Below are positions 1 through 19,093 of a DNA stretch of 64,000 nucleotides, piece by piece. A program made the position numbers and the translations under genes. The notes under the pieces are model-generated. The model was given only the letters and a program-made list of their open reading frames with translations, was not told the DNA's origin and did not search any database. Each line of letters begins with the position of its first letter. The stretch's first letter is position 1. The stretch spans positions 24,796,697 through 24,860,696 of the forward strand of contig NC_134509.1 of NCBI RefSeq assembly GCF_027942865.1, read 5' to 3'. Origin of the DNA: Odontesthes bonariensis. Its lineage: Eukaryota > Chordata > Actinopteri > Atheriniformes > Atherinopsidae.

Positions 1-1792
1 TGATTTTACACACTTCTTAAAGTGTTTCCAGGACCTGAGCTGTGCAACTTCAATTTACAGATGAGGGACGCTGCGGCCTACGAAAGATCTGTGGTCAGAT
101 CTTAAGGCATCAGTGGGGATTAGTGTTCAGGATTGAGTAAACTGACCTTAGACCTGTGAGCAAAAGCAACTTTTACCTCATAGGGGCCGATCCTGCTGGG
201 GAGAGGTAGAATGTATCCAGGGGGGGACATTACATTATGACAACAATCAGAGTAGAAGAAGCCGACATGTATAAGTATTTCATTTTACTCTGTTAAACCC
301 TAAGGATGTTCATTTGTATATACAATTCACTGCCATTTTTGGTGGCCATACGTGCCTGACTTTCCTTTCTTTTTTGTTTTTAGTGGATGCTTCTTTTTCG
401 GTTCATTACTCTCGAGGATAAAGTAAATTAATTTAGCAAATTGAAGACGAGTATTGTGGGAAAAGACTGCTTAAAAAGCCAAATGTCCTTCTTTGACATT
501 ATTTTTGAAACATGGGCTCTGTGGGATTTATCAGCCATGCAGCAATAAAAATCACATTTAAAAGGGTTTTTTCTGGGTTAAGAAATCTTTGTGATATAGT
601 AAAAGGATTCTTATGTTTTCCATCTGAAGTTATTAAAGACACCCTGCATGTGCCAAACAGAAGACTTTATTTGGAGAGTCATAGTCACATTTGACCTTTA
701 AACTTGAAGCTAGCTTTTAGATGGACAAGAGGAAGGGACTTCTAGTTGACTAAGCACTTATTTAACATGTTTTCAAGTAAATAATTAACTCGCAATAGCA
801 TTTCGCCCTCCTCGGCTTGTTAAAGGAGCAGCCTCAAATTTCCTCCAGGCTCTTGGTGACACTGAATTTTCTCAGCTCTGTTTTTTGGCCGTTTACAGGT
901 CTCAGTATAAACTATTCTACATAGCTTGTGTGTGAATATCGATCACAGATTAACACCTCTGCCTGCAGCAGTGAGAATCACACACCTGTCGCTAGTGGGA
1001 CTACTGGTTTACTTTGTGCCTGACAGTTCTGGAGGTTGTAGATCAGATTACACTCAGTGGTTTTTATGTTACTGTATCTGAGATATTTGTACGAGTGGAT
1101 GGACCTGTTTGTCCTTTTTGACTAAATATGTGCAGAAATTACTGACACCAAATGCATTAAAGACACTGCTGTTGATTCACTTTCTGCAGTCAAAGGGAGG
1201 AGTTTAAAGGAGCTTTTAGGGAAGAAAAATGAATGAGAGTGGAATGTGCTATAACTGAATCTTTAAGTTATATTTAGATTGAAAAGCTGTGTATCACAGC
1301 TGCTCTTAGCATAGAGCTTCGCTGTTTTTTTTTTCATGCTACAAAAAGTCATTTTCCAGTCATTTTTTGTCCTGTGAAAGTTGCAGCTTGTCATTAAAAT
1401 CCACTTTGAGCAACATGAGTAAAAAATTTGCAGTGCTTCATGCTGTCTTAAAGTGTAACAAGGCCAAAGCTTTGACATTTATTGTATATTTTAAGGTAAA
1501 AATGACCTCTTAAAATAGCAATTGTTTGACTATTGTACAGTTCACCAAGGTACATGCCTCAGAAGCAAGGAGATTGGAATGATTTATGAATGAGAATGAG
1601 CTGCTTAAAACCTATTTTGCTTTTGTTTCTTCTTTTTGTCAACACTGAGCTGAAGTTTCTTCCCTTTTGCTTTCACCTGTTGGTGAAAGAAGCACAAATC
1701 TGATTTACTTGTGTTTGAATAAAATTATTAATGGCCTATTTTGTCAAATTGAGAACATTGCTTCATTCATTCAGTAGTTTTTTCCCCCACAG

Positions 1793-2092
1793 ATTAAGAT
1801 TAGATGTATTGTCATGCATACACACAAAATTTGTCCTCCGCTTTTAACCCATCCAGGTTGGCACCTGTTGACACACTCAGAGACAGATTCCAACCTGGAG
1901 CGGTGGGCAGCCAGTCACAGCGCTCGGGGAGCATGGGGGTACAGTGCCCCTGCTCAAGGGCACCTCGGCCATGACAGCTGGAAGAGTGGGCTGTCAGTTC
2001 CACCAATTTTTTGAGTGGCGAGAGTGGGAATCAAACCTGCCAACCTTCCGGTTATTGGACGACCGACTCTAACCACTGAGCCACGGCCAAAG
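1793..2092 (-). repeat. tRNA-derived SINE, reverse orientation
   Basis: Read on the minus strand, the right end starts with a tRNA-like head containing GTGGCTCAGTGGTTAGAG (A-box region) and GGTTTGATTCC (B box). A body with the phrase 'cttgagcaagg' style tract follows, then a tail of repeated short T/A-rich units ending near 1793. The same head is on the plus strand at 43289-43570, and the same tail portion recurs at 17742-18296, so this is a dispersed family. The B box and A box are the expected RNA polymerase III internal promoter. Exact family name not assigned. Confidence 0.75.
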
Positions 2093-2554
2093 ACTACCCT
2101 CTCATTCCAGCCTGCCTGCCAGCTCACTGTGCAGCCTTGGAGCATACCAGGATTTAAACTGGTTATTTTGGTCCTCACATGGATGTGAGAGTTGGATTAC
2201 ATATCACACAGTTAGTGCACACCGATTTAAAAAAGAAAATTTCTCACTCGTCAGTAGATAAAAACCCAACGGAACTAAAAGAACGAGACAGAGTCTAAAA
2301 CCATATTTGACTTTTGACCTTTTCCTGACCTGCAACATATAGCCAAATGTCAATACTTTCAGAGAGAATATCACTTCTGAATGAAAAAAAAACAAAACAA
2401 ACAAAAACATTTCATCATCAAAAATATAATTTAACACCTGACAATATAATACTTAGAAAAGTTACTGAAAAATCCCAATACAAAAGGGTACAAATATTGA
2501 CACAAGTTAGTTAAATTGATGGCCGAGTTGTTAGACTCCTTATATTTAAGTGCG

Positions 2555-2634
<80 letters not shown>
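2555..2634. repeat. (CA)n microsatellite in the tk1 3' UTR
   Basis: About 80 bp of almost pure CA dinucleotide with a single T interruption at 2581. It starts some 40 bp beyond the tk1 stop codon, so the tk1 mRNA should carry a GU repeat in its 3' UTR. Likely length-polymorphic. Confidence 0.95.
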
Positions 2635-2636
<2 letters not shown>

Positions 2637-2677
2637 GATTGATTTCCAAAGTTATACAGCAAGTGTCATTTTTGTCC

Positions 2678-5318
2678 TCAGAGTTGGAGAGTAGAGAAGA
2701 GTTTCCGGGGAAATCCGGGATCCACGACTTTTCCTGACAGAGCATGCTGTGGAGTTTCCTTCCTGAAGGGTGAACTGTTCTCTTTGTCAACCATCAGACC
2801 GCCGTAACACTTTCTACAAACCGCCTGGTATTTGTCAGCTCCACCGATCACTTCGACCTATGACACAAACAAGAGGCGGTCGATAAAAGGCCTTTCCAAT
2901 GCTAAATACATGAACATGTGTGTTTTGTGCATAACAGTAAACCGCTTTGGAACAGCCTTCTGTCAAATAAAAGTGCACCATCAGCATTTTTAAAACGGCA
3001 GAAGACATTTGTTCTCCTTGGCTTTCAACTGTATTTAATGCTCTTAGTATTTGAACCTTTTACCCTTAAAAAGGACCTCATTTTAGCTTTATCTGCTTAT
3101 TTCTGTTGGTTTTATGATTGTTACTGTGCGTTAATATTGTGTACAGCACTTTGGTCAACTGCGGTTGTTTTAAATATGCTTTATAAGTAAATTTGATAAG
3201 ATTCATCTTGCTAATAGTGTGTAAGGAAAGCAGCACAAGAGGTCAAACTGGTGGACTACCAATACAACAAAGTCGAGCTGGTATTTCTTCAAACCTTCTT
3301 GAATGTTTGTTCAGAGCCCCCCCCCCTGGCTCATCACCCTCTGAAAGGTCCTTCTTTGCACTATTTGACCAGTTTTCATAACTTCTAGATTTGCTTCCTC
3401 ACCTCCTTCTCGGCTCCGAGCCTCTTGGTGTAAGCAGCTTCTTTGTAACACTGCATGCAGACGGCATTGAGCTTCACCACGCTCTCCGCCAGAGGGACGA
3501 GGTTCAGGATGTTTCCAAATGGCTACAAGAATGCACAGGAAAGAAAAGGAAAAAATAAGAATTACGTACCAGTGAATGAATGGAGGTATAATTGCATTAC
3601 AATGACAGAATGGACACTATAGTTTTTGGAATAATGGGCTCATTAAATTATCTGTTAATGCTGCCCTTGCAGATTGTTCCAGTTTTTCTTGAAAATGAGC
3701 TTCTTGTCTGGGATATTTCATTACATCTGTCCCCACAGTGGTACTCAGTGTGACACTGACATGATACTCACCTTCCTCTGGAAGGTTCCATCCAATGCGG
3801 CTACAATGACCGTCTTCCCTAAATTGGCCATCTCCTCACAAAACTCCACCGTGTCTGGAAACTACGATACGAAAAGAAGAGCAGATTAGTGCCAATAGCA
3901 CCCCTCTTTGGTCCATAAAACATCCTGGTCTCCAACGGAGGTGAATTTTAGTTTAAGAATAAAATATAAAGTATTTCAATCACTTACAAACTGGCCTTCA
4001 TCAATTCCAATGACACAGGCTCGTAGTGCCAAAGACCGAACATCTCCAAGACAGTTGGCAGGTACAGCTTCCATGGTGTTTCTAAAACAGGATGAGAGAA
4101 GAAATAATGAAGTGTCTTCTTACTTTTCCTGAAAAAAACTCAATCAATATTAGTATCTATGAATATACATACTAATTCCAAACCATGAAGTATGACAGGA
4201 AAATTTACATAGTGAGGAACGTCTCCACAAGAGGTCATTGTGTGCTCAGATTGACTAAACACAGCAGCTGATGCAGCGACTGATATTTACATAATTTTGT
4301 CTTTCACGTGAAATTGACCTTTTAAAACACAGGACTTATTATTTTACTCGTTTGTGTGTCATAGCAAGAACCAAACTTGCTCTTTACCATGTTGAGACTC
4401 AGCTGTATGAAAGCATATTTACTCTTTTACATCATGTTATATTGCCAATTGGGTTCCTTCAGGACAGTTGTTAAGGTTGGGGAATTGCACACATAGTTGC
4501 ACACCTAACTTCCTCCTATACATGAGTTTGTTTCTATAAATAAGAGCAGCTTAGGAAAATAGAAAGATCATAAATACAGGGGGCTTACTTGTCATGTGTG
4601 GCCATGCCTGTGTCAGAATAACGAGTGTCTTTGGCATATTTGACCAACAAGCAATTGTACTGGGCTATCTGGAAACGGCGCACTCTTCTCATCAGTTCAG
4701 TGCTGCAAAAACAAGATTTAGTCAACACAAATTTGGTCAAATTGTACAATGTACACTTTAGGATACCTATATAGTAATACTACATAAAATATATATTGTA
4801 GAAACCAGATTAAATTAGTCATAAGTCCTATATGTGAATGTAAAAAACCATTATATTAATGCATAACAAGTTACTGTACAACATTAATCTGGTTCATGAA
4901 TGGGAGCTGGATAAACAAAGCAGAATTGGCGGGATGGTGAAGTTTGGACGGAAATTGTAACAGAGACGGTGTTTTAATATGATTTTAAACACTGAACATG
5001 AAATTCACTGAGCAGCTTCGTCCATAAAACCTTGTTTACACGTTTTTTATGAACGGATTATGAGCAAATAACTCACCTTTTTCCTGAAAACATCGGCCCA
5101 AAGATGACCTGCAAACAACAACGAAGAAGATTAGTCTCAGGAAGACGCTTGTAGATTAGAGTCTATAACTATATGCCGAACTTTCTTTATGTTTATAGCT
5201 TATTTATGTCCTTGTTAGCTAAATTAGTTGAGAGAAAGTTGCAGATACTAACCTGAATTTGTCCCCGTGCGTTCCTTGGTGAGTTTGGTAAAACTCTTGG
5301 AAAATCTACGCAGTCCAT
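2678..5318 (-). CDS. tk1: Thymidine kinase 1, cytosolic (7 exons, complete)
   Basis: TK1 phosphorylates thymidine to dTMP with ATP in the cytosolic salvage pathway and is S-phase specific in vertebrates. Exons in transcription order: 5318-5253, 5108-5077, 4702-4589, 4081-3988, 3861-3772, 3522-3403, 2857-2678. All introns are GT-AG and the joined frame is 231 codons, close to mammalian TK1. The start [11 protein letters not shown] precedes the P-loop GPMFSGKS (residues 26-33). The Walker B/catalytic segment DEGQFF begins at residue 98, and zinc-type cysteine pairs are seen in 'VCMQCYKE' and 'VCRKCY'. Near the C terminus is a KEN tripeptide (197-199) matching the APC/C-Cdh1 degron of TK1, which explains loss of the enzyme at mitosis. 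afmid starts about 1 kb away, divergently. No damage is seen. Confidence 0.97.
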
Positions 5319-5427
5319 CTTTTATGTAGATAAACTTTAACAAAAGTAAACAATTAAAAGAAAACAGCTGAAATAAATATTTAAAAGGTGCGTAACGTGC
5401 TATGAAAGCCTGAAGCTAATCTTTGAA

Positions 5428-5438
5428 TTCCGCGCGCC
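5428..5438. promoter_or_regulatory. E2F-like site upstream of tk1
   Basis: TTCCGCGCGCC resembles the E2F consensus TTYSSCGC and lies about 110 bp upstream of the tk1 start codon. Growth-regulated TK1 promoters are classic E2F targets. This is only a motif match. Confidence 0.4.
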
Positions 5439-5470
5439 GGCAATGCAGAGCGAATTTATCAAAGTTTCCA

Positions 5471-5563
5471 CCAATGGATGTTGAGTCTGTTGACACGTGA
5501 CACTGTTGACCAAACAGCTTCTTCAACTATCTGCTTCAGCTCAGAGCTAGAGTACTGACCAAT
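5471..5563 (-). promoter_or_regulatory. Pair of CCAAT boxes, inverted relative to tk1
   Basis: CCAAT occurs at 5471-5475 and 5559-5563 on the plus strand, so both are inverted with respect to tk1 transcription. The mammalian TK1 promoter also relies on inverted CCAAT boxes bound by NF-Y. The spacing of 88 bp is wider than typical helical pairing, so cooperative action is inferred only. Confidence 0.45.
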
Positions 5564-6373
5564 GAGAGCACAGGGAACTGCAGCGCCTCGTTTGTAACTT
5601 TATTAACAATTCTGACAACACATCGAATCATAACAACAGAAAGCAGAAACAAAATATACGATCGTGCAGCCAAGATATAAAAGAGCGGTAAGGTGTTAGT
5701 TGCACCTTGTAGATAAATACAACTTAAAAAATTTATCGTATTACCCAATAAAACCTAATCTGTTCAATCATTTTTCTATCTGGTATTCTATCTTCTGTTC
5801 TAAGTCAGTTTCACCCAATTTCGACAAGTTTGACCGATTTCAAGGAAATTGGTTTTGGATTATGCATCAACTGAAATATAGCATGCCTTATTTCTAGATT
5901 TTAAATGTCAGGTTGGAGGGAAACCCCACCCTACACTTCCTCATGTCAGTTATGTGATATAGACAAAAGCAAAACTGAAGCCCAGTCACCAAACATAACA
6001 TTACGAGCGTTCTGGGTTAGATTTTTTATTCCTTCCATCGGCAGTTTTTACATGCGCAGCTCCTGTTTTTATAGCAAAACATGACTTTCACTTTCTCGAT
6101 TTACATGGTTAATAAAATAAAGTGGAAAAGTGCACATAGGTTCTTTCTCTTCTGCTTTTTTATGTGTAGAAGGAAGCAATTTCATGTTGGTAAACAAATA
6201 GATAAGTAAATGAATGAACGAATCCATAAGTAAATGGATAAAAGAGCTGTTTCCTGAATCGACCGAGCACATGACCCCATGATCTGTGTGTTTACACAGT
6301 GAGGGGTTCACTGTGTAAAGTCCAGACTTGCAGGACCTGTTGACTGGATCACTGGGTCACTTGAACGGACAAA

Positions 6374-16182: not shown

Positions 16183-17203
16183 TACAGTACTGTGAGAGTC
16201 TTGAGACGCCCCTGGACATTAATGGAAATGCAGCACATGAGGCAAAATTAGAGTTTGTGCACGTCTAACAAACCTGAAAGTCAGTGTTTGGGGTGAACAC
16301 CTTTATTCTTCAACACAGCCTGAACCGTCTTTCTTTAAGTAGTCTTCAGGAATAGTTCTCCAGGCTTCTTGAAGGACATTTCAAAGCTCTTTGGAGGTTG
16401 GCTGCCTTTTTTCTTTAAGATGATCCCACACTGCTTCAATAATGTTGAGGTCCAAGCTCTGGGGAGGATTCATCCCTCATCAGACCTGTTGCCACTGAGG
16501 CTTGGGCCAACAGTAGATGCAGACATCCAAAGTCTCCCGGAAGCTCCGGGAGTCTCCCTGATATTGATAGTTAATCACGGATGCCCGCGAGTCGGATAAA
16601 ATATCCCGGATTTTAGACTATTCGAGGGAGTTTTTTTTTTTTTTTTTTTCAATGCGAGTGAGAGCGTGCAGGCAACACAATAACTCGTGCACCATGCGCG
16701 TTTCGACTGCGCAGGCACGAGAGAGAGGGGTGTGGGGAGAGGTGTGAAACCTGTGCGTATGTGTCCAAAGCGATGTTCTGTTCAACGAGCGTTCAAGGCG
16801 ACTGCTGGTCAGAGGGCACGCTGATTGGTTTAGTCAGCAAAATAAGCCAATAACGTTCGGTGTGGGAGGGCTTCGATTTACTCTCTGACAGTCACCTAAG
16901 TTACCACTCAAAGCTGTGCATCCTGCCAAATGGCAGAGGGTGAATCCTCGAGTAAAAAAAACGAAAATATAAGACTCATTTTACAGCAGAATATACTAAA
17001 GTATACCCATGTGTAGAGAAGGTGAAGAATGATGACACCGTGGCGAGGTGCACAGTATGCAATAGTGACTTCAGTATAGGGCTCGGGCACACGCGTTGCA
17101 TTCTGGGATATGGTCGCCATATTGGAGGCACAATCTCGTAAACAAACCCTGAGGCAAGACGGAGATCAAGGACCAAACAGTGAGAGAAAAGTGACAGAAA
17201 AGC

Positions 17204-17434
17204 ATGTTAAAATCGAAGAAAGGATGTGGGATATACCGGGATACATTACAGAAGGAAGCCAGAGATCGGTACATACAGAAGATTTGCGTTATAAACGGAC
17301 TGGACCCTTATGAAATACCAAGCAAGGAATGGAGTGTCGACGAAGATTTACTGCCGAAGTTCACCCTTTCGGACATAATTGCGTATATAGTATGTGGTGT
17401 CAGTGCTTATACTTTGCAACAGTTTCAATTATAA
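17204..17434 (+). pseudogene. Truncated unknown transposon-borne protein
   Basis: An open stretch encodes YRDTLQKEARDRYIQK, then DPYEIPSKEW, then FTLSDIIAYIV, then AYTLQQF, ending at a stop. From memory this resembles the N-terminal part of large uncharacterised teleost proteins often annotated with SWIM or YqaJ-like nuclease regions. That link is an inference. It lies just inside the left terminus of the THAP transposon and reads inward. Everything downstream of it is missing, consistent with an internal deletion. Confidence 0.4.
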
Positions 17435-17741
17435 TGACACTTTACACTTTTGTCATGTTACTCTACTTGTAAATAAATAATGAAACACACACACTTGGCT
17501 GTATCTCAAAGCATATTTATTTCAGACGACTTCAACTTTGCACAACACTCCTGCTCATGGTGGTCAGAGTACAACACACAGACACAATCTTGTCAAAGAA
17601 TGTTTTGTCTTCACCTTCGCATAGCAAAACTATGTTGATAGGTACTTTTGCTGACAAAAAGGTGTATTGTTTCTGACAGTTCCAATCGCCCTTTCCATGT
17701 GAATTTGGAGATGGGCAATTTTCCTTGTATTTTCCACATTA

Positions 17742-18296
17742 AATTAAGATTAAGATTAAGATCAGATTTCAGGGTTCCTACAGGTTTCTTCAAGTCAAAT
17801 TTAAGTCTTTTTAAGACCTTTTTTAAGACCATTTATAAAAAAAATAATACCTATTTCACGGCCTATTTCACAGACCTACCAGCAAAGAAAAACTTTTTTT
17901 TTTTTTTTTTAATTTGTTAAAATTAAAATTGGTCTGTGTCAGTGCTGTAGCAATGTGATCGGACCCGGGGCGGAGCGGTAGCGGCAGCGTTGCGTTCTCA
18001 ATGATTGGTTCCGCCACTCTTCATTTAGGCTACGTTATTTAGGCTTTTCAAAATAATAGTAGCCTTGTTGACAAATGAAACGTTTGAGGAGAATGTGATA
18101 CGGAGAAGTTACTGCACAAATTTTAAGACCCAGATATCAAAATTCAAGACTTTTTCAAGTCTTTTTAAGGTATTATTTCCAAATTCATAAATTCAATGCT
18201 TTTAAGGCTTTTTAAGACCCCGCGGGAACCCTGAGATTTATTGTCATGTATACATGCATACACACGAAATTTGTCCTCCGCTTTTAACCCATTGAG
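17742..18296 (-). repeat. SINE tail fragment split by a MITE
   Basis: The repeated TAAGAT units at 17742-17769 and the block at 18234-18296 (CATACACACGAAATTTG, CTTTTAACCCATT) together match the tail end of the SINE at 1793-2092. They are separated by a MITE with an AGATTT duplication. The tRNA-like head is absent, so this copy is truncated. Confidence 0.7.
17770..18233. mobile_element. hAT-type MITE, innermost insertion of the nest
   Basis: The ends are CAGGGTTCCTAC and CGGGAACCCTG. AGATTT abuts both sides (17764-17769 and 18234-18239). Just inside both ends are complementary blocks on the theme TTTAAGTCTTTTTAAGACC. There is no coding capacity. CAGGG ends fit non-autonomous hAT elements. Confidence 0.75.
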
Positions 18297-18376
18297 ACAT
18301 CCCTTGCTTCCAACTGACAGTGTCCTCTTGTGAAGGCGGGGATCTTTACCTCAGCACACAAAAGTCTGTAACTTAC

Positions 18377-18617
18377 CAGAATGAAAATGCAGAGAACACA
18401 CTCTCATCGACACCGGGATTGAGTGGAAAGTTATGCTTGGTCGTCTTACAGCAGCGATCCATGCTAGTCGACGACGCTTTGTTATCTCGGACACTTGGTC
18501 TCCGTGGGTGCGCCTCCAAGCAGGAAACCGGTAAAAAGATAAACCATTTACGATTTCCCCCCCATTCCTGTCACGGCTTACGCTATTGCACCCCACGACA
18601 CAGCAACGTGCGACCAT
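18377..18617 (-). CDS. THAP zinc-finger exon of a transposon gene
   Basis: On the minus strand an ATG at 18617 opens MVARCCVVGCNSVS and continues for about 80 codons to CSLHFHSG. A splice donor GTAAGT follows directly (18376-18371). Cysteines in CCVVGC, the central W in RRLAWIAAV and the closing C-S-L-H-F fit the C2CH THAP domain, a DNA-binding fold found in P-element-type transposases and domesticated regulators. The domain itself has no stop or frameshift, so it may be recently active or still transcribed. Downstream exons cannot be found, and the element is internally deleted. It sits just inside the right end of its transposon. Confidence 0.7.
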
Positions 18618-19093
18618 AGTGGCAAAGACAATAAGTAAAATAGATAAACCAACGAAGAAAGTTCCAAGACCAGGCGGGAATACGTCTGCGCGCAGTGGAA
18701 AACAATGTAAACAAAACAGTTCTGAGCCTCCAGTATGGCCGCCGCTCACGTAGTGACGTCACGTGCCCGAGCCCTATTGCCCACGGCGGACTTAATGACT
18801 GTAAAACATGTGGAGGTAGGTGAACGCGCCATCATCTGCATTTTATTTCTGTAGGTTAAATGCTATATATGTTATAAAATGTTATAAAATAAAGCAAAAC
18901 GTATCAAATACTTATTTAAAGTATCAATACACATTTAGTTACTAAATTGTGTAGGCCTATATCTAACTAGCCAGCTACAGTATCTAACTATCTACTGTAT
19001 ATCCAGCCTGTCTAAGCCTTTTAAAAATCCCCAATTTAATATGTTGATAAATAGGCAAATTTAGAGACCCCTAAAATTAAATAGGCACGTGGC

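Follow-up and report, generated by a model that had tools for sequence, protein, structure and literature searches.

The window analysed here is a stretch of 64,000 nucleotides from Odontesthes bonariensis, located on contig C4 of the genome. At positions 17078-18775 it contains a transposon with terminal inverted repeats (TIRs), inside which two coding fragments converge. Along the element the order is TIR, N-terminus of a YqaJ-type gene (+), C-terminus of a transposase (-), THAP exon (-) and TIR. The 13-bp TIRs are perfect and, together with the palindromic AT at each side, form a perfect inverted repeat of 15 bp. The original prediction of a TIR transposon with 13-bp repeats and two inward-facing gene remnants is borne out by the pairing of 17078-17090 with 18763-18775 and by the convergence of the THAP exon with the 17195-17434 frame. 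Three features escaped notice at that stage: the C-terminal piece of the transposase, an old insertion resembling a LINE tail, and a 464-bp element nested within it. The features are as follows:

17076-17077, no strand: left target-site duplication AT, repeated at 18776-18777
17078-17090, plus strand: left TIR AGGGCTCGGGCAC, a perfect inverted repeat with 18763-18775
17195-17434, plus strand: part of the N-terminal exon of the second ORF (YqaJ type), with an ATG at 17204; the internal deletion cuts after LQQF
17535-17738, minus strand: C-terminal end of the DDE transposase with its stop codon; a frame change lies inside; 55% identity over 40 aa to L059
17740-18295, minus strand: insertion splitting the transposase remnant; it measures about 81 bp in copies of the 1222-bp family and is interrupted here by the nested element
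17770-18233, no strand: nested 464-bp non-autonomous element with inverted ends CAGGGTTCC/GGAACCCTG and a 6-bp duplication AGATTT
18296-18361, minus strand: further transposase remnant (22 aa) from the C-terminal region of DDE_Tnp_4, placed by comparison based on copy L026
18371-18376, minus strand: GTAAGT, the splice donor of the THAP exon, read from the sequence; only a few bases separate it from a deletion joint downstream
18375-18617, minus strand: THAP exon (Pfam THAP PF05485, E 4.6e-11)
18763-18775, minus strand: right TIR, pairing perfectly with 17078-17090
18776-18777, no strand: right target-site duplication AT, read from the sequence and also found in sister copies

The THAP exon scores 43.8 bits against PF05485 (cut-off 23.9) over profile positions 1-58 of 87, so that the C-terminal part of the domain is missing. 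By recognition of the motif, we take all four C2CH ligands to be present. The earlier description of a clean C2CH THAP exon with a splice donor stands for the domain match and for GTAAGT. A PDB sequence search with the exon gave two matches (E 0.41 and 0.67), neither of them named as a THAP protein. At the other end of the element, the 17195-17434 frame matched no Pfam family. In alignments of 78 aa it shares 47% identity with an exon upstream of the YqaJ gene in the relative L059 and 90% with the long copy L084, in which the frame goes on past the deletion point. The transposase end, with L026 as query, matches L084 in two stretches, of 44 aa (93% identity) and 22 aa (86%), and the relatives L059, L060 and L069 at 50-55% and 68-74%. 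For the 22-aa DDE_Tnp_4 remnant, the corresponding values are 91% to L084 and 77-82% to the three relatives.

The insertion of about 81 bp is present in L026 and absent from L084, where both sides are contiguous. It has a TGACAATAAA-type tail resembling a LINE 3' end. The nested 464-bp element, hAT-like as we judge it by its ends, lies inside this insertion at a site that is unoccupied in L026. The window copy is thus a 1222-bp element enlarged to 1698 bp by a nested insertion, and 1698 bp is not the basic unit; in alignment it has 476 extra bases relative to the family, mostly those of the nested element.

The element is hosted by a flanking frame (16956-17077 and 18778 onward) which, with one AT removed, runs on briefly across the insertion. 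We take this frame to resemble a BED-type zinc-finger/hAT-derived ORF; its zf-BED match in Pfam is weak, and was obtained with an approximate query sequence containing one error.

A young family of 1222-bp copies

Across the 945 Mb searched, the 13-mer terminus (at most one mismatch) occurs 404 + 363 times, compared with 159 + 123 for the reversed-pattern control. Most of the exact matches listed on contigs C1-C7 form inverted pairs about 1.2 kb apart; the shared termini of the family are seen directly. The 2-bp duplication is equally direct: it is perfect in 22 of 24 distinct full-length copies, and 20 of the 24 have AT on both sides, in line with the earlier remark that the duplication does not resemble that of a P element. 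The others comprise one GT/GT, one AC/AC and two AT/GT copies. Since the GT/GT and AC/AC copies fix the boundary, the leading A belongs to the element and the TIR begins AGGG. Among the 20 AT/AT copies, inspected by eye, the base to the left is A or T in 9 copies each and another base in 2; the base to the right is T in 9, A in 10 and another base in 1. A or T precedes the duplication in 18 copies and follows it in 19; the combination of A before and T after is found in 4 of the 20.

The amplification is young, because 21 aligned copies differ from the 1222-bp consensus by 0.70% on average (0.17-1.80%). The YqaJ-side exon gave 613 first-look candidates in the genome. Among the best 150, which were scored and which include the window, the exon is 100% identical at one other place, and 92-97% identical at the rest; 6 of the 150 carry a stop. 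The copies sampled were the exact-TIR sites listed first on contigs C1-C7 and three taken from the best-scoring protein matches, and such a sample is by its making biased toward young and intact copies.

Three other sites were longer than the basic unit. Two of them, L010 (2.0 kb) and L011 (1.5 kb), align over the 1.2-kb unit with gaps. The third, L009, has 5.2 kb between matching TIRs and was rejected as an autonomous copy: it is a copy of the 1.2-kb unit, spanning 500-5736 of that locus, with an insertion bearing an uninterrupted 1280-aa frame, which we take from reading it to be a LINE (endonuclease plus reverse transcriptase).

Long relatives and a second lineage

To reach the long copy, the genome was searched for sequences like a related transposase, and twelve short stretches around DDE matches were then checked. 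Only one of them (L072, extended to L084) has 97% DNA identity to the 1222-bp family. The other eleven comprise L073 and L076, with DNA matches at 63-75%, and nine stretches without a match at the threshold applied. L070 and L071 are related more distantly. L084 and the 1222-bp unit share four blocks, of 93.5% over 368 bp, 96.8% over 313 bp, 97.7% over 258 bp (the block that holds the THAP exon) and 82% over 102 bp. Comparison of the two places one deletion joint after the YqaJ N-terminal exon and a second a few bases past the THAP splice donor, and makes the loss of the transposase core directly visible.

On one strand of L084, Pfam recognizes HTH_Tnp_4 (E 2e-18), DDE_Tnp_4 (E 4e-27 and 1e-15) and THAP (E 5e-7). 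The other strand carries the YqaJ N-terminus, a PHD finger (E 3e-7) and a YqaJ-like tail, which has no Pfam match of its own and aligns over 53 aa, at 60% identity, with the end of the YqaJ-matching ORF of L059. One terminus is kept with 1 mismatch, followed by AT. The THAP-side end is lost and adjoins a stretch that, from its reading, we label Gypsy-like reverse transcriptase. L084 is decayed: both the THAP exon and the transposase are broken across two frames, and a large part of the YqaJ domain has been lost. The expectation that longer copies would encode both proteins was therefore realized in part, in that L084 preserves remains of both genes but is broken, and no intact autonomous copy with AGGGCTCGGGCAC TIRs was found among the TIR places listed on contigs C1-C7. 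Long copies with nothing but a P or Kolobok transposase, the outcome named beforehand as fatal to the original prediction, are not what was found, since the transposase of L084 is of the DDE_Tnp_4 type.

Three related loci complete the picture of the long form. L060 and L069 both have Pfam matches to THAP, HTH_Tnp_4, DDE_Tnp_4 and YqaJ in the same convergent order, and the AT-flanked TIRs of L060 are 5.27 kb apart. Their THAP exons are 50-51% identical to that of the window. L059 has HTH, DDE and YqaJ matches; nothing in it matched the THAP exon of the window significantly. In L069, the HTH-DDE (425 aa) and YqaJ (474 aa) frames are uninterrupted and accompanied by a THAP exon; its transposase is 53% identical to that of L084 over 240 columns. 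A search of L069 with the window fragment did not recover a YqaJ N-terminal exon, nor were TIRs located there.

A second lineage, B, has the TIR TGAGAATGAGGAGT. A search with the YqaJ N-terminal exon of this lineage yielded 795 first-look candidates, of which 150 were scored (74-100% identical to the query), and it seems that lineage B also has many short copies. Three of about 2.3 kb (L085-L087; the element in L087 measures 2365 bp) are all AT-flanked, and in each of the three the THAP exon, the N-terminal YqaJ exon and the final 44 aa of the transposase are preserved. When mapped on L060 and L059, L087 has several deletions at positions unlike those of the window family. In both lineages there are AATAAA/ATTAAA candidate poly(A) motifs near the transposase end, although such hexamers are common by chance. 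It appears, then, that two ISL2EU lineages in one genome have each yielded an abundant short derivative in which the same pieces were kept and the joints differ.

Origin of the short copies and alternative explanations

We consider it about 95% probable, on the basis of sequence comparison, that the 1222-bp element is a non-autonomous member of ISL2EU (PHIS / PIF-Harbinger-like), a group also called IS4EU, and that it arose by deletion from a parent as follows. The parent would have had TIRs flanked by AT and, between them, two convergent genes, one for a THAP-HTH-DDE_Tnp_4 transposase and one for a YqaJ-exonuclease/PHD protein. One internal deletion would have taken the transposase core and most of intron 1, and another the YqaJ gene almost entirely. 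The transposase remnant would also have received a short LINE-tail-like piece. The resulting 1222-bp copy would then have multiplied to hundreds, presumably through a transposase made elsewhere, acting in trans on the shared ends and inserting at AT sites. The window copy would later have gained its nested small element and so reached 1698 bp. The original prediction of a deletion derivative of an undescribed autonomous element is thus upheld as regards the deletion from a two-gene element, whereas the kind of element is a published one.

It could be argued that the short copies are kept for a product, either a truncated THAP protein or a YqaJ N-terminal peptide, that regulates transposition. 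The retention of the THAP exon, its donor and the candidate poly(A) motifs, and of the same coding parts in the second lineage, would fit such a role. However, the THAP domain is cut before its C-terminal part, and a selection test gave little encouragement. This used 21 copies, namely the 24 oriented distinct full-length copies minus L009, L010 and L011, left out for their length. In the THAP exon, 28 non-synonymous changes were observed against 28.1 expected under neutrality, with 5 stops, so that no purifying selection was detected among these short copies. The YqaJ-side exon had 24 against 28.0 (P 0.09) and the transposase tail 7 against 10.7 (P 0.03, from a small count and uncorrected for multiple tests), slight deficits that could reflect chance or the choice of copies. 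A fourth piece, of 54 bp, had only one change. Maintenance for a regulatory product is thus quite improbable.

A broader version is that the whole kept set (THAP exon, YqaJ N-terminal exon and transposase C-terminus) was selected, as a long cis-acting region or as a unit in which a THAP fragment competes with the transposase. The KP repressor of P elements follows a similar logic. Two lineages are too few to call the shared retention selected, and we regard this as unlikely.

The remaining possibility outside known groups, a new and undescribed two-gene superfamily, draws on the fact that the element in the window is by itself too short to be classified and that its YqaJ-side fragment has no Pfam match. 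We judge it very improbable, as the long relatives possess the ISL2EU protein set and the AT duplication.

Under the ISL2EU assignment, the window element is ordinary in kind, a young internally deleted copy among hundreds. Its interest is that a seemingly unclassified element now has a place in a known group, where it is joined by a long relative and by short copies from a recent burst. In addition, two derivatives with different joints in one genome offer a case for asking why short ISL2EU derivatives keep both gene ends.

Comparison with known systems

P elements have an 8-bp duplication, their own transposase type and a THAP domain at the transposase N-terminus. The last of these is the one feature shared with the element described here, and descent from a P-like element (THAP plus P transposase) is ruled out for practical purposes by the 2-bp AT duplication and the unrelated DDE_Tnp_4 transposase; L084 has HTH_Tnp_4 alongside it and no P-transposase family at E up to 0.01, and a convergent YqaJ/PHD-type gene is present. 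Kolobok elements, with a TTAA duplication and a THAP-containing transposase, are suggested by the association of THAP domains with Kolobok, and were dropped with next to no probability left because the duplication is AT and the transposase matches DDE_Tnp_4. PIF/Harbinger elements likewise have a DDE plus HTH transposase and two genes, but according to a published survey (PMC4482050) their own traits are a 3-bp TWA duplication and a Myb/SANT protein, compared with AT and the YqaJ/PHD type in our elements.

The assignment to ISL2EU rests on the domain set and the AT duplication, set against the published definition. The survey defines the group by an AT duplication and by two ORFs, one for a THAP/HTH/DDE transposase and one for YqaJ, and puts autonomous elements at about 4840 bp on average (PMC4482050); PMC9179366 names the same pair of ORFs and records the group from teleosts. 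It is because the THAP/HTH/DDE and YqaJ proteins of the long relatives and the AT duplication fit this description that we assign the element to ISL2EU, and the label "unclassified" no longer applies given the THAP/HTH_Tnp_4/DDE_Tnp_4 and YqaJ/PHD remains in L084. Nor is a two-gene architecture with a THAP protein unusual, as had been supposed, since most autonomous ISL2EU candidates have it (PMC4482050, section 5). Among the papers listed for ISL2EU MITEs and for YqaJ/THAP transposons, none describes the 1222-bp family, judged by title and abstract opening. The survey itself remarks that its method may have overlooked non-autonomous copies (PMC4482050).

Some differences from the group are apparent. 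The TIR of the window family begins AGGG and not with the usual GG, which is no ground for exclusion as ISL2EU TIRs are stated to start so usually, not always, and the published A|AT|T target (PMC4482050) is not strictly kept in this family. The basic unit is a 1222-bp non-autonomous element, and the long copy is broken. In two of the traits that define ISL2EU, the resemblance is close: AT flanks the window family on both sides in 20/24 copies, and THAP, HTH_Tnp_4 and DDE_Tnp_4 lie on one strand of L084, if with THAP and transposase in two frames each. As for the second ORF, Pfam recognizes YqaJ in the relatives L059, L060 and L069; in L084, of the same family as the window element, this ORF is reduced to its N-terminus, a YqaJ-like tail that Pfam does not match and the PHD finger.
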